Source: a virus | Direction: 5' to 3' (one strand) | DNA length: 20,503 nt | Virus record (IMG/VR): IMGVR_UViG_3300023115_000136 | Location: 1 to 20,503 of that record | In this document: in pieces, positions 7,743-13,755 of the stretch | Numbering within the stretch: the stretch's first letter is position 1 | Layout of the letters: every line of letters starts with the position of its first letter | The notes under the pieces: generated by a model | Seen by the model: only the letters and a program-made list of their open reading frames with translations | Told to the model about the DNA's origin: nothing | The model's database searches: none | Position numbers and translations under genes: made by a program

Positions 7743-8933
7743 ATGGCAAAGCAAAACACCCACCTGGAGCACCTAGAAGACGACATCCTGAATCAAGGAT
7801 CTCGTGGAGGTGTGAACGCAGTTAAGTTTCTCCGTGAACTTGGCAAGATGCTCAGTGAACCGCATTCTAATGTGAATGTAACTACCAAGTGGGATGGTGC
7901 TCCTGCTGTCATTTGTGGCAGGCACCCAACGACTAAGAACTTTTTTGTTGGTACGAAAGGTGTCTTCGCTAAGATGCCCAAGATTTGCCTGAGTGATGCA
8001 GATGTGGATCATTATTACAGTGGAGATCTTGCAGCAAAACTAAAGACTTGCTTGCGTCTTCTTCCCAAACTTAATATTCAAGGAGTCTTGCAAGGTGATC
8101 TTCTGTTTACTAATGATACGACAACTCGTACTATCGGTGGTGAGCGGGTAATTTCTTTTCAACCCAACACTATTACTTATGCTATTCCAGAGAAGACAGA
8201 ACTGGGACAGCGTGTCAAGAAAGCACAACTCGGTATTGTGTTCCACACCAGTTATAGTGGTGGTCCCAATCTTCTCGATATGACACCCTCTTTTGGTGTG
8301 GATGTTAGTCGAATGCAGAATGTTCCTGGAGTTGTTGTATTTTCATCCAACTTCACTGATGCCACTGGTGCATCCCTATTTACTCAGGCACAGAAGCGTC
8401 AGTATGATATGAAAGTAAATCGTGCAGAGGGATCCCTTAAGCAGGCAAGTCAGTTCTTGAATATTCTTCAGCAGACTGGTGACGGTAAGTTCCTTTTATC
8501 TGCTATGTTCAAGGTGTACTTTAACTCTTACATTCGTAAGGGTATTGCTATCGCAGACACAAAGAAAGTTGCTGCTGGATTTGCTTCTTATTATCGTGCT
8601 GCTCTTGATAAAGAGATTGCTCTGAAGAAGACTGCAACGACGCAGGCAAAGTATCGTAAGATTCAGCAGGATGGTCTTAAATTTATTAGGGCAAATGAGA
8701 GAGCAATCTATATGACAGTTGCTTCATATATTAACTTGACAGATGCAAAGACGATGATCATCCGTAAACTTGAATCTGTTAAAGATATTGGTACCTATAT
8801 CAAGACTGAAAACGGATTCCGTGTTACTGCACCTGAAGGTTTTGTCGCAATCAAGTCTGGCGCTGCTTTGAAATTGGTCGATCGTTTGGAGTTCTCTCGT
8901 GCCAATTTTACGGTAGAGAAGAATTGGGGTTAA
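7743..8933 (+). CDS. Ligase-like nucleotidyltransferase (probably DUF6267 family)
   Basis: A 396-residue protein usually annotated as unknown in cyanophages; I believe it belongs to DUF6267. Its motifs read in the order of ATP-dependent polynucleotide ligases. Motif I is TTKWDGAPA, with K49 as the candidate adenylated lysine. A motif III-like LQGDLLF follows (118-122), then a IIIa-like strand GIVFHTSY (164-171), a motif IV-like EGFVAI (365-370) and a motif V-like ALKLVD with K377. An insertion of about 180 residues, largely helical and basic, separates IIIa from IV, and there is no obvious OB-fold domain after motif V. It may join or cap nucleic-acid ends, or adenylate another target. It follows the PD-(D/E)xK-like gene by 7 bases. 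Its stop codon overlaps a late promoter motif. The gene call is secure; the function is inference. Confidence 0.88.
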   Translation: MAKQNTHLEHLEDDILNQGSRGGVNAVKFLRELGKMLSEPHSNVNVTTKWDGAPAVICGRHPTTKNFFVGTKGVFAKMPKICLSDADVDHYYSGDLAAKLKTCLRLLPKLNIQGVLQGDLLFTNDTTTRTIGGERVISFQPNTITYAIPEKTELGQRVKKAQLGIVFHTSYSGGPNLLDMTPSFGVDVSRMQNVPGVVVFSSNFTDATGASLFTQAQKRQYDMKVNRAEGSLKQASQFLNILQQTGDGKFLLSAMFKVYFNSYIRKGIAIADTKKVAAGFASYYRAALDKEIALKKTATTQAKYRKIQQDGLKFIRANERAIYMTVASYINLTDAKTMIIRKLESVKDIGTYIKTENGFRVTAPEGFVAIKSGAALKLVDRLEFSRANFTVEKNWG

Positions 8934-8939
8934 TAAATA
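8932..8939 (+). promoter_or_regulatory. T4-type late promoter (AATAAATA)
   Basis: AATAAATA again overlaps the TAA stop of the upstream gene and lies 24 bases before the ATG at 8964. This is nearly the same geometry as the motif at 6877, which strengthens both calls. The sequence AAGGA at 8943-8947 is the only ribosome-binding-like sequence and is rather far from the start. Confidence 0.55.
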
Positions 8940-8963: not shown

Positions 8964-10106
8964 ATGAAATTCAGTACGTTTCTCACTGAAGCAAGAACTG
9001 TAGCGGGAGATGCCGCAGCAAAACGAGGTCTGCAACACGCAGGACACGGTTACTATGCTGACAGAAGTGGCAACATTGTTGCTAAATCTGAAGGCGGAAA
9101 GAGACTGGTTGCTGTAGATAGGGCAGAAGCGCAAGCAGCACAACAAAGTGCTGAGCAGGGTGCCGCTGAAGATGAGCATCTGGAAAGTGGCGAAGGTTTG
9201 GGTACAATTGCAGTGACATTTGGTCGCTTCAATCCTCCTACTATTGGACACGAGAAACTTCTTGACGCTGTGGCAAGAGAGGGTGTTGATAACTATCGCA
9301 TTTATCCTTCTCGTTCTGTTGATCCAAAGAAGAATCCTCTTGAACCTGATCTGAAGATCAAGTTTATGAATGAAATGTACCCGAGTCATTCGGATGCAAT
9401 TGTGAACGATAGTGGTCTCACCAACATTTTTAATGTGATGGTGGCACTTCAGGATGAAGGGTACACTGGAGTTACTCTGGTTGTTGGATCTGATCGTGTT
9501 TCGGAATTCAAATCGCTACTTGAGAAGTACAACGGTCAGGCATACGAATTTGAAGAACTGAATGTTGTTTCTGCAGGTGAACGTGACCCTGACGCTGAAG
9601 GTGTTGAGGGTATGTCGGCATCTAAGATGAGAGCATTTGCTGCAAGTGGTGATCTTGAATCATTTGCTGAGGGTGTCCCTGGCGGAAACGTGAGTGTTGC
9701 TCGTCGTCTTATGAATGAAGTTCGTAAGGGTATGGGTATCTCAGACCAAGAACAAGTTTCTGAGATGTGGGAGATTGCTCCTAAACTGGATCAGAAAGGT
9801 CTCCGTGAAGCATATGTTGCTAAAGAAATTTTTGGTATGGGTTCACTTGTTGAGCATCTGGATACAGGTGTGATTGGTGAAATTGTTTATCGTGGAACTA
9901 ACTATGCCATCTTTGAAGATGCGAATGGTTGGAGATTCCGCTGCTGGTTGACTTCCCTTAATGAAGTTAAAGAAAAGCATACATCTGCCGACGATGGCAG
10001 TGGCAATACCTGGAAAGTTGGAACTGATGCATATCGTGCAGCAGTTATGGCAATGACTCCTGGTCAAGAAGTTCGCAAGTTCAGCGACTTCAGAAAATCT
10101 AAATAG
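8964..10106 (+). CDS. NMNAT/PPAT-like nucleotidyltransferase with capsid-targeting-like N-terminus
   Basis: A 380-residue protein of several parts. Residues 1-10 (MKFSTFLTEA) resemble the T4 internal-protein targeting peptide and end in L-T-E before A, the prohead protease gp21 cleavage pattern. Residues 22-50 hold a short glycine/tyrosine-rich motif (HAGHGYYADRSGN). Residues 80-240 form a cytidylyltransferase-like Rossmann domain with GRFNPPTIGH (87-96) and SASKMR (218-223), equivalent to the (H/T)xGH and ISSTxxR nucleotide-binding motifs of NMN and phosphopantetheine adenylyltransferases. VVGSDRVSEF (173-182) is the usual mid-domain strand. Residues 300-335 (GVIGEIVYRGTNY...RCWL) look like a small KOW/SH3-like barrel. 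The substrate cannot be told. A late promoter lies directly upstream. A packaged nucleotide-metabolising enzyme is the most interesting reading. Confidence 0.9.
   Translation: MKFSTFLTEARTVAGDAAAKRGLQHAGHGYYADRSGNIVAKSEGGKRLVAVDRAEAQAAQQSAEQGAAEDEHLESGEGLGTIAVTFGRFNPPTIGHEKLLDAVAREGVDNYRIYPSRSVDPKKNPLEPDLKIKFMNEMYPSHSDAIVNDSGLTNIFNVMVALQDEGYTGVTLVVGSDRVSEFKSLLEKYNGQAYEFEELNVVSAGERDPDAEGVEGMSASKMRAFAASGDLESFAEGVPGGNVSVARRLMNEVRKGMGISDQEQVSEMWEIAPKLDQKGLREAYVAKEIFGMGSLVEHLDTGVIGEIVYRGTNYAIFEDANGWRFRCWLTSLNEVKEKHTSADDGSGNTWKVGTDAYRAAVMAMTPGQEVRKFSDFRKSK
10099..10105 (+). promoter_or_regulatory. Weak late-promoter-like motif (CTAAATA)
   Basis: CTAAATA overlaps the TAG stop of the nucleotidyltransferase gene and lies 21 bases before the ATG at 10127, a geometry like the better motifs at 6877 and 8932. 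The same heptamer also occurs inside coding sequence elsewhere in the window (for example near 1190, 3765, 16072 and 17051), so on its own it is weak evidence. Confidence 0.25.
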
Positions 10107-10126: not shown

Positions 10127-12061
10127 ATGAACATCGAACTCGCTTCTAAACTGCTGAAATATTCTCCAGCAGACGTGCAAACCGCAACGTATGTTGTTGA
10201 ATATGCTCAGCATAACTATGATGCTGATGCTGCGATTGCTTATATTGATAAGCGTCTTGCCGAATCCAAGACTCAAAGAGAGATCGCTGAAATCATTCTC
10301 GATGAGCGTTACAAGGGTAAGCACGGTCAGTCCTCTGCTGAGTACAAAGATGACCGTTCCCCTGGTGGTAAGATGGTGAGCGGCGACTCCAAGCAGTCGG
10401 GTGCTGAATACACCCACGGTCGTAGAGTCAAAGCAGCAAACCCTGGTTCTCAACCTGATGAGGGTGGCAAGACCAAACCCAAGTCCCAAGGTAAGATGGA
10501 TCGTGGCACTCGTGCCGATCTTGAATACCGTAAGGCAAACCTCAAGAAAGAAGAGGTTGAGATCGAAGAGGGTTACAAGGAAATTGATAAGAAGAAAGAG
10601 AATGCGATGTATCGCCGTGCTGGTAACCTCGCACGTACTTCTCTGTCTTCTAAGGGCAAGACAAAGGAGGATGCACAGAACAAGTCTGCAAAGATTGTTT
10701 CTGCTATTGCTCGCCAAAAAGAAAATGAGCGTTTTGAGCGTATCGGTAAAGATCCGAAGCATCAAAACAACTATAAAGAAGAACTTGAGATCGAAGAAGG
10801 TCTCAAGCAAGCACGCAAAAACATTGGTATGGACCCCGACAAACCTTCCTGCTGGGATGGTTATGTTGCCAAGGGTACCAAGATGAAGGACGGCAAAGAA
10901 GTTCCTAACTGTGTGCCTGCAAACGAAGAATGGATCTGGGATCTGGTTGACGAACTCGCTGAAGATTTTGAGTTCTTCACAGATGAGGATCTGGAAGATG
11001 TGATCATTGAAGCACTTGTGGATCTAGGAGATGAGGAACTGCTTCAGGAAGCAGTTGCATCTTTTGAAGGTCTGGAGTTGCTGACTGAAGATCGCTATGC
11101 TGATGCGGTTGCTACTTCTAAGTCGAACGCTGCTAAACCTGAAGTTAAGGCAGCAGTTCGTCGTGCACGTGTTGAGCGTGTGAAGAAAGCAGCAGGTCGT
11201 GTTGGTTCTGCTCTCAAGTCTAAAGCTGGCGAAGTTGCTGGCAAGGCAAAGGAAGCAGCAGGTAAGGCAAAAGAGTCTGCTGGTAAGGCAGCATCTAGTG
11301 CTAAGTCTGCAGTGAAGTCTGCTGGTAAGAAGGCGATTGAGACTGGTGCTAAGGCAGCAGGTCACGCCGTGGGTACTTATCAGGCTGCACGTATCAAAGC
11401 GAAGCGTACAGAACTGAGTAAACCCAAGAGTTCCAGTAGTTCTAGTGAATCCAAACCCGCAGCGAAAAAACCTGAGGGTAAGGATGGTACAGGTGGTAAA
11501 CTTGATAGTCTGCTGAAGTCTGTTAGAGGTTCTTCTAGTTCCAGTTCTTCTGGTTCTAGCTCTTCTAGCGGTGGTTCTAGTTCTTCTGGTTCTAGCAACA
11601 GCAGCGGTTCATCTTCTAGCGGTTCTTCTTCTAGTGGTGGATCTTCTTCTGGGGGTTCTTCCTCCAGTGAAGGTGGTACCAAGAAGAAGTCTCTCCTTCG
11701 TCGTGCCGCAGGTGCAGTGGGTAGGGGTCTGAAAAAAGTGGTCGGTAAGACTGCTCGTGTCGTCGCGAAAGGTTCAGACAAACTCGCTAGAAAACTCGGA
11801 GAACAAAACTCTATGGAATCTCGCACAGACCGCATCCGTCGTATTCTTGCTATGCAGGAGACTGTGGATCACGACAAGACCACACTTCGTAATCCCGAAG
11901 GTATTTCCTGGAGAGATCGCCTTGGTATGAACGAAGGAAAGACACCCGAACAAGAAGCAAAGTCTGCAGCACTTGCTAAGTCCAAAGAACTTACAAAGCA
12001 AGGTAAGCATAAGGAAGCTTCGGAAGTCTTCAAAAAAGCGTTCCCCAACTTCAATAAGTGA
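10127..12061 (+). CDS. Large modular low-complexity protein, probable virion/head-internal protein
   Basis: A 644-residue, mostly disordered protein with clear sections. Residues 1-65 are helical. KKEEVEIEEG (140-149) and KEELEIEEG (217-225) are two copies of a motif also present in the gene at 14144. Residues 234-263 hold a two-cysteine block (SCWDGY...VPNCVP) familiar from other cyanophage proteins. Residues 266-325 are strongly acidic. Residues 350-412 are a lysine/alanine-rich repeat resembling histone H1 tails. Residues 468-515 are almost pure Ser/Gly. Residues 519-560 are basic, and the last 80 are charged helices. IEE|G (twice) and LQE|A (306-309) fit the T4 gp21 cleavage pattern. No enzyme motif is visible. 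A role inside the head, perhaps DNA-associated and processed, is inferred from these motifs and the neighbours. Confidence 0.88.
   Translation: MNIELASKLLKYSPADVQTATYVVEYAQHNYDADAAIAYIDKRLAESKTQREIAEIILDERYKGKHGQSSAEYKDDRSPGGKMVSGDSKQSGAEYTHGRRVKAANPGSQPDEGGKTKPKSQGKMDRGTRADLEYRKANLKKEEVEIEEGYKEIDKKKENAMYRRAGNLARTSLSSKGKTKEDAQNKSAKIVSAIARQKENERFERIGKDPKHQNNYKEELEIEEGLKQARKNIGMDPDKPSCWDGYVAKGTKMKDGKEVPNCVPANEEWIWDLVDELAEDFEFFTDEDLEDVIIEALVDLGDEELLQEAVASFEGLELLTEDRYADAVATSKSNAAKPEVKAAVRRARVERVKKAAGRVGSALKSKAGEVAGKAKEAAGKAKESAGKAASSAKSAVKSAGKKAIETGAKAAGHAVGTYQAARIKAKRTELSKPKSSSSSSESKPAAKKPEGKDGTGGKLDSLLKSVRGSSSSSSSGSSSSSGGSSSSGSSNSSGSSSSGSSSSGGSSSGGSSSSEGGTKKKSLLRRAAGAVGRGLKKVVGKTARVVAKGSDKLARKLGEQNSMESRTDRIRRILAMQETVDHDKTTLRNPEGISWRDRLGMNEGKTPEQEAKSAALAKSKELTKQGKHKEASEVFKKAFPNFNK
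11180..11356 (+). repeat. Lys/Ala-rich histone H1-like repeat region
   Basis: Codes for tandem imperfect units such as AGKAKEAAGKAKESAGKA, alternating lysine with small residues. The composition resembles histone H1 C-terminal tails or LEA proteins and would be helical or disordered and strongly basic. It follows directly after the acidic segment of the same protein. Confidence 0.85.
11531..11668 (+). repeat. Ser/Gly low-complexity tract
   Basis: About 46 codons of almost only serine and glycine, using a mixture of TCT, AGT, AGC, TCC and GGT codons. The synonymous mixing means the DNA is not a simple tandem repeat. This argues for selection on the protein composition, probably as a flexible linker between two basic regions. 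Length variation between related phages would be expected here. Confidence 0.88.
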
Positions 12062-12105: not shown

Positions 12106-12504
12106 ATGAAGGAATCTATTCGCGATCTGCTCAGACTTGAAGTGGGTCAACTCAAAGAGGCAGCAAAGAAAAAACTTGATCCCGTAGGGAAAGAGGACAA
12201 GGACATCGACAATGACGGTGACCACGATAAGTCCGATAAGTATCTGCTGAACCGTCGCAAGACAGTTGCTAAGGCGATGGGCAAGAAGACTCATATCTGT
12301 GCATCCTATGTGGAGCACGCTGAGTTTGGTATTTGCAAGACCATCCCCGAGGCACATACCCTTGAGGAAATGGCAGAACCTGATGCTGAAGGTAACACTC
12401 ATTTTGTTACCCATTATGACATCATCGACGATAATGACATTCTTCACGAGAACGTCTCTGTTGAAGAACTTGAAATCGTCCTAGCAGAATCGCACAACCA
12501 CTGA
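12106..12504 (+). CDS. Small protein with a dockerin/EF-hand-like calcium loop
   Basis: A 132-residue protein (147-148 residues if the start is at 12061 or 12058). The N-terminus MKESIRDLLRLEVGQLKEA ends in L-K-E before A, a gp21-type cleavage pattern. Residues 33-44 (DIDNDGDHDKSD) place aspartate or glycine at loop positions 1, 3, 5, 6, 7, 9 and 12, exactly an EF-hand calcium loop. The following YLLNRRK helix gives a dockerin-like half-repeat. Residues 62-132 form a His/Asp-rich domain (CASYVEHAEFG...HYDI...ELEIVLAESHNH) that I know as a recurrent, unnamed cyanophage module. The start is chosen on the ribosome binding site at 12094. A structural or head-internal role is inferred from the neighbours and N-terminus. 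Confidence 0.82.
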   Translation: MKESIRDLLRLEVGQLKEAAKKKLDPVGKEDKDIDNDGDHDKSDKYLLNRRKTVAKAMGKKTHICASYVEHAEFGICKTIPEAHTLEEMAEPDAEGNTHFVTHYDIIDDNDILHENVSVEELEIVLAESHNH

Positions 12505-13173: not shown

Positions 13174-13755
13174 ATGTCTCTTTACGGGAGAACTGACGCA
13201 GCAGCAAATCAAACTCAAGTAGGTCTCACCCGTGGTAACGGTGCTGGGTCCGCTACCGAGACAATCGTTTTCGTTGACGCGACCGAAGCAGGTCTGAGCG
13301 AGAACAAAGAGCGTGGTCTCACCTCACCTGGATGGTGGGCATACAGAACCTATACTGATGCATCTGGCAAGACACGTCACAAGGCAGAGCACCTGATGGT
13401 ACTCAGCAATCCTGACACCAATGCTAACGAAACTCTGTCTGACGACACCATCGCAGCAGACGTTGCATCGGCAATCACCATCAGTGCACAACCCACAGCA
13501 CAGACATCTGCATCTGGTGCAGCAACCTTCTCGGTTACCGCAAGTGCAGACGCTGGTACCGTGGTCTATCAGTGGCAGCGTCAAACTGCAACTGGTACCC
13601 GCTGGAGCAACATCAGTGGTGCAACCAGTGCATCCCTGGCACTGACTGGTCTGACCGCATCCGAAGACGGTTACAAGTATCGTGTGAAACTGACAAGCAC
13701 TGCTGGTGCAGAAGAAGTTATCTCCGACAGCGCAGTTCTGACCTTCGGAACCTGA
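13174..13755 (+). CDS. Ig-like domain virion structural protein
   Basis: A 193-residue protein of a kind conserved in cyanomyoviruses. Residues 1-95 form an N-terminal domain (MSLYGRTDAAANQT, then PGWWAYRTYTDASGKTRHKAEHL). Residues 97-193 form an Ig-like beta-sandwich with the typical pattern: ISAQPTAQTSASGAATFSV, then YQWQ, then a tyrosine-corner-like DGYKYRVK. Alanine, serine and threonine dominate, as in exposed virion proteins. Ig-like domains on phage capsids and tails often mediate weak binding to cell-surface glycans. It has its own late promoter, terminator upstream and good ribosome binding site, implying high late expression. Its exact place in the virion cannot be told. Confidence 0.88.
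   Translation: MSLYGRTDAAANQTQVGLTRGNGAGSATETIVFVDATEAGLSENKERGLTSPGWWAYRTYTDASGKTRHKAEHLMVLSNPDTNANETLSDDTIAADVASAITISAQPTAQTSASGAATFSVTASADAGTVVYQWQRQTATGTRWSNISGATSASLALTGLTASEDGYKYRVKLTSTAGAEEVISDSAVLTFGT

Follow-up and report, generated by a model that had tools for sequence, protein, structure and literature searches.

A candidate head-packaged adenylyltransferase of T4-like cyanophages that carries a conserved T4-type capsid-targeting sequence

The internal head proteins IPII and IPIII of phage T4 are expressed late and begin with a short capsid-targeting sequence (CTS; MKTYQEFIAE/A, where the slash marks the cleavage site) of the form aromatic-xx-F-[LI]-x-E/A, which is removable by the prohead protease gp21. 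Studies of IPIII CTS mutants have established that residues 4 and 7 direct targeting, that residues 8 and 10 govern processing, and that gp21 cuts after L/I-x-E (PMC9026906). The T4 internal proteins are small and are not known to be enzymes of the type described here. GFP fused to the IPIII tag has been expressed during T4 infection of laboratory E. coli. T4 Alt is a head-packaged enzyme that is delivered with the DNA, but it is an ADP-ribosyltransferase whose fold and propeptide differ from those of the cyanophage enzyme. The closest described cyanophage protein is T4-GC190, annotated as a cyti(ti)dyltransferase or NMNAT-like virion protein (PHROG 395/455). T4-GC190 is a cyanophage core gene whose product recurs in virion proteomes, where carry-over has not been excluded by the authors. 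Both the packaging of this enzyme in virions and its NMNAT-like reading are already published. In the literature that we searched, which mostly leaves subscription journals uncovered, no paper was found that links capsid-targeting sequences with the cyanophage enzyme. What appears to be new is the targeting and gp21-cleavage tag, together with the findings that it is conserved and that split or fused enzymes lack it.

The DNA analyzed here (the window) is a stretch of 20,503 nucleotides from an IMG/VR virus record. It includes an intact ORF for a 380-aa protein with a single plausible start codon, as no in-frame ATG, GTG or TTG is present between the upstream stop and M1 (Table 1). The protein is a long-form T4-GC190 product (PHROG 395 match, 1.7e-88), with which it shares domains, gene neighborhood and tag. 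Similar proteins occur in 532 phage records, mostly from T4-like cyanophages. No listed isolate has a protein more than 48% identical to that of the window, whose lineage is metagenomic; IMG/VR contigs supply near-identical copies as well as relatives at 72-81% identity. Five of these relatives come from long contigs, four of which encode psbA, and thus the window very probably derives from a cyanophage. The gene order is polymerase, uvsX, oxygenase, gp41, mazG, DUF6267, transferase, head-protein genes, gp61, nrdA and nrdB, and S-SZBM1 and S-SM1 have the same order around the transferase. The fragment carries neither a gp23 gene nor a gp21-like gene.

Table 1. Positions of the adenylyltransferase gene, its predicted parts and adjacent features in the window.
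Feature	Position	Strand	Details
DUF6267 protein, conserved upstream partner	7743..8933	+	Fused to the core in S-PM2; invariant KxDG and EGxV
T4/cyanophage-type late promoter motif AATAAATA (pattern NATAAATA)	8932..8939	+	32 nt before the transferase start
Putative capsid-targeted HIGH-superfamily adenylyltransferase, whole gene, 380 aa	8964..10106	+	ORF, motifs, alignment, model
Capsid-targeting propeptide MKFSTFLTE, residues 1-9	8964..8990	+	Predicted gp21-type cut after E9, before A10
Small beta domain GLQHAGHGYYAD..., residues 20-53	9021..9122	+	Missing in several orthologues that retain the tag
Adenylyltransferase core, residues 80-260	9201..9743	+	[HT]xGH motif 9222-9251; SxSxxR motif 9615-9632
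C-terminal beta domain, residues 277-345	9792..9998	+	Encoded by its own small gene in the P-HM1, ACG-2014e and S-PM2 groups
Downstream gene	10127..12061	+	Sequence and position match to MS-detected S-SZBM1_139
Head protein (PHROG 613)	13174..13755	+	Position of MS-detected S-SZBM1_136

An earlier sequence-only reading of this DNA likened the N-terminus, MKFSTFLTEA, to the T4 CTS and noted that it ends in the gp21 pattern L-x-E/A. The translation agrees exactly, and the alignment of homologues proposed as a check reveals the pattern at the N-terminus of all 80 best homologues from viral contigs (E-A in 78, E-S in 2), as well as on every intact long-form isolate protein checked. Among 63 nonredundant homologues (<82% identity), F6 and E9 are invariant even though both codons for each residue are used (TTC and TTT, GAA and GAG), F occupies position 3 in 59, and E9 is followed by A in 61 and by S in the other 2, with variation at the x positions. 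In 16 aligned homologues, only M1, F6, E9 and A10 are invariant across residues 1-85, which precede the core. The linker between tag and core varies freely in length, such that FGR falls anywhere from residue 33 to residue 126 among the best viral-contig homologues, which indicates that the tag is conserved in its own right.

Chance or a start-codon artefact is ruled out as the source of the tag by its conservation, by codon usage, and by the expectation for S-SZBM1, wherein 0.0097 tagged N-termini are expected among 218 proteins of that composition and two are found (the transferase orthologue and a 105-aa protein). A general cyanophage N-terminus is ruled out because only a few proteins per genome carry the tag, and membership in the enzyme fold is ruled out by the very variable linker that separates tag from core. 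The canonical form was not found on the other window genes tested; the gene at 12504 has a looser F-xx-F-N.

When the tag pattern was run as a control over 50 kb of T4, its only N-terminal matches were IPII and IPIII. Its internal matches include the gp21 site of gp23 (AFGSFLTE/AE), at which gp23 is known to be cut after residue 65, and T4 IPI deviates from the strict pattern (MKTFKEFT...ITE/A). The conserved tag positions in the cyanophage protein correspond to the four functional positions of the T4 CTS with an offset of one, because the tag here is without one residue after the lysine. The gp23 proteins of near relatives read RGILTE/AAPT (as in S-SZBM1), RGVLTE/AAPT or AGILNE/AAPT at the position where cleavage would be expected. 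In a 171-kb relative (G001), a gp21-like gene adjoins gp23, which has a matching putative [LI]-x-E/A site.

The same early reading placed a late promoter motif ahead of the gene, and this motif is present. The plus strand of the window has exactly three copies of the pattern NATAAATA (6877, 8932 and 13132), and all three precede gene starts (6908, 8964 and 13174) by 31-42 nt, a placement that was equalled by 12 of 20,000 random start sets.

Orthologues of the enzyme have been detected by mass spectrometry (MS) in virions of S-SM1 (PMC3037559), S-SZBM1 (S-SZBM1_140, 2 peptides; PMC9146016), S-SCSM1 (PMC9602691) and S-CREM2 (gp154, 3 peptides; PMC10665884), and virion presence is likewise in the literature for S-CBWM1. 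We read the N-termini of the first four, and all are tagged: MKKFSAFLNE/A, MRFRQFIIE/A, MKSFLQFLKE/A and MKNFSSFLTE/A, respectively. The enzyme was not detected in S-PM2 virions, which is weak evidence, as that experiment also failed to detect true virion proteins (PMC3037559). For S-CREM1, the text describes 14 virion proteins, a shallow list from which the tagged enzyme of that phage is missing. Thus, the proposal that the protein is packaged in the phage head is supported as far as the conserved tag and the virion presence of tagged orthologues are concerned, and these data pertain to orthologues rather than to the phage of the window.

The published analyses of all four phages are silent on where the enzyme resides within the particle, which would also fit an N-terminal helix that, instead of targeting the protein to the head core, binds another part of the virion (the neck, portal or tail). 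We consider such a helix quite improbable, given that the four key positions are the same as in the proven T4 tag and that the prohead-protease site lies at the same place. The S-SCSM1 authors additionally allow for carry-over after CsCl purification (PMC9602691), and a survey of jumbo phages proposed a role in NDP-sugar synthesis for HIGH-type enzymes of cyanophages (PMC7824862). An enzyme that transfers NMP to phosphosugars and appears in virions through carry-over would accommodate both suggestions. However, the head-targeting tag is conserved, the gene is preceded by a late promoter motif and resides in a block of virion-protein genes rather than in a sugar cluster, and the protein was detected in virions of four phages, so this explanation seems very unlikely to us.

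Conservation, the T4 control and the virion proteomes strongly support head targeting and a gp21-type site. We consider it likely that the protein is a late-expressed adenylyltransferase that is packed into the head by a T4-type CTS, cut after E9, and delivered to the next cell with the genome. The aromatic-xx-Phe element of the first nine residues would dock the protein into the prohead core, and a gp21 homologue would then cut after E9 at L-x-E/A, as in T4 gp23, IPII and IPIII. The mature enzyme, beginning at A10, would stay in the DNA-filled head and enter the next cell with the genome. Its cargo portion would be an enzyme of 371 residues, in contrast to the small T4 internal proteins, and the arrangement would resemble that of Alt if injection is confirmed. 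A conserved targeting and cleavage tag would explain how the enzyme reaches virions and make injection directly testable; as a simple signature, it also provides a way to find further cargo packaged in the heads of marine T4-like phages. The predicted N-terminus after cleavage is AAESGASVQAK for S-SCSM1_91 (uncut tryptic form EAAESGASVQAK) and AVAAAAK for S-SZBM1_140 (uncut form QFIIEAVAAAAK).

The enzyme domain carries the NMNAT/PPAT-like motifs that had been pointed out, GRFNPPTIGH (residues 87-96) and SASKMR (218-223), both intact and invariant among aligned homologues. These correspond to the [HT]xGH and SxSxxR motifs that HIGH-superfamily adenylyltransferases, including NadM, NadR, NadD and CoaD, carry on a Rossmann-type core, and the predicted structure (mean pLDDT 83.9, core mostly >90) has such a core. 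Its best structural matches are NadD and CoaD (E 5e-5 to 1e-3; TM 0.53-0.72 by target length). The comparison had been suggested against NadM, NadR and CoaD, and it upheld the adenylyltransferase fold and the likeness to CoaD, with NadD sharing the top matches. A single-sequence PDB search gave nothing useful. Profiles for NMN adenylyltransferases give weak matches in 9-13 of 16 family members, and the window protein scores below the curated NMN/NaMN adenylyltransferase cut-offs (PRK08887, 17 bits versus 164). Judging from the modeled fold and the weak profile matches, the domain falls among NadD/CoaD/NadM-type adenylyltransferases, although it differs from these enzymes in scoring under the family cut-offs and in having additional N- and C-terminal domains. 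The most likely chemistry would be the transfer of AMP to a phosphorylated acceptor, with NMN or NaMN the most likely and phosphopantetheine the next, and we can only guess that it would act on the cofactor metabolism of the host as infection begins.

A packaged NMN adenylyltransferase might counter an NAD-depleting defence, as the sequence-only reading had suggested, or might raise NAD early in infection, and a role in NAD metabolism has already been speculated in print (PMC9602691). The motif layout is NadR/NadM-like, with GRFxPP..GH, KNPLxxxxK (HMM-aligned to NPFTAGER of MJ0541) and SASKMR, and the weak NMNAT profile matches point the same way. However, the best structural matches include CoaD as much as NadD. 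Moreover, PF04095 (NAPRTase/Nampt) is absent from 12 related phage genomes (the window itself being 20 kb), and these 12 genomes therefore lack the Nampt/Namat-type partner gene of phage NAD reconstitution pathways (NARP), although the host could supply NMN or NaMN. We view an NAD-specific function as possible, somewhat short of probable. Along with the linkage to DUF6267, these observations leave the counter-defence role not established.

The DUF6267 gene suggests another function. Its product has invariant K49-x-D51-G52, FFVGxK, E365-G366-x-V368 and K377 residues, resembling, in sequence, motifs I, IV and V of ATP-dependent ligases and capping enzymes. In S-PM2 (L153), a direct in-frame fusion joins DUF6267 to the adenylyltransferase core. 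Together with the conserved adjacency of the two genes, this fusion hints at a shared role for which NAD synthesis is not the obvious candidate. Thus, DUF6267 might be a ligase-like covalent nucleotidyltransferase that acts with the transferase in nucleic-acid or nucleotide modification. Two findings dampen our enthusiasm for this idea, which we judge to be unlikely. DUF6267 has no significant PDB fold match, with ligases and capping enzymes appearing below threshold only, and it is absent from the S-SZBM1 virion list, so the two proteins may not be together. The apparent fusion of these two genes in metaG-MbCM1 seems to stem from a slip of reading frame in the metagenome assembly.

Homologues that keep the enzyme and lose the tag would argue against tag-directed packaging, and a minority of split or fused homologues are indeed untagged, whereas all intact long forms checked are tagged. 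P-HM1, ACG-2014e, S-RIM32 and S-RIM44 have the core alone, without the tag, and in these phages the C-terminal domain has a gene of its own. The jumbo phages of Klebsiella and Pseudomonas likewise have an untagged core alone, and the S-PM2 fusion protein lacks the tag. Packaging by the tag is thus a property of the long form and not of every relative. S-SKS1 was left out of the tag counts since its tag (KSFFQFLFES) and core lie in different frames of the deposited record (L056 ~2176-2520), where the gene is unannotated. The C-terminal beta domain is ruled out as a shared packaging module, as no further copy was found in S-SZBM1, G001 or the window. A more general proposal is that most T4-like cyanophages inject a pre-made, cofactor-synthesizing adenylyltransferase, which a removable T4-type tag has brought into the head and which alters cofactor metabolism or defence before phage genes are expressed. 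In the minority clade, the lack of a tag would then be due to the splitting of the enzyme or its fusion with a ligase-like partner. We advance this proposal tentatively and with some doubt.

Several other proteins have similar N-termini. In S-SZBM1, the adjacent genes S-SZBM1_191 and S-SZBM1_192 (L044:27311-27628 and 27628-28125, minus strand) encode small proteins that start with MKSFKSFLSES and MKTFKQYITEA and are candidates for head targeting. Two proteins of the 171-kb relative also look tagged, one of 305 aa that starts with MKSFSEFLTER (G001:88459-89376) and one of 134 aa that starts with MKSFKEYITEL (G001:139248). An internal site resembling F-xx-F-[IA]-x-E-G precedes a TGHISADRG domain in three proteins (G001:87634-88326, G005:55939-56442, and S-SZBM1_194 at residue 542). 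A start codon lies directly ahead of this site in two genomes, so the site may represent either an internal translation start or a point of cleavage. Finally, S-CRM01_128c (L058:1875-2426), a neighbor of the transferase gene, carries LSLDSFIKEA and a GLxxxGHGxYxD motif like that in residues 20-50 of the 380-aa protein.
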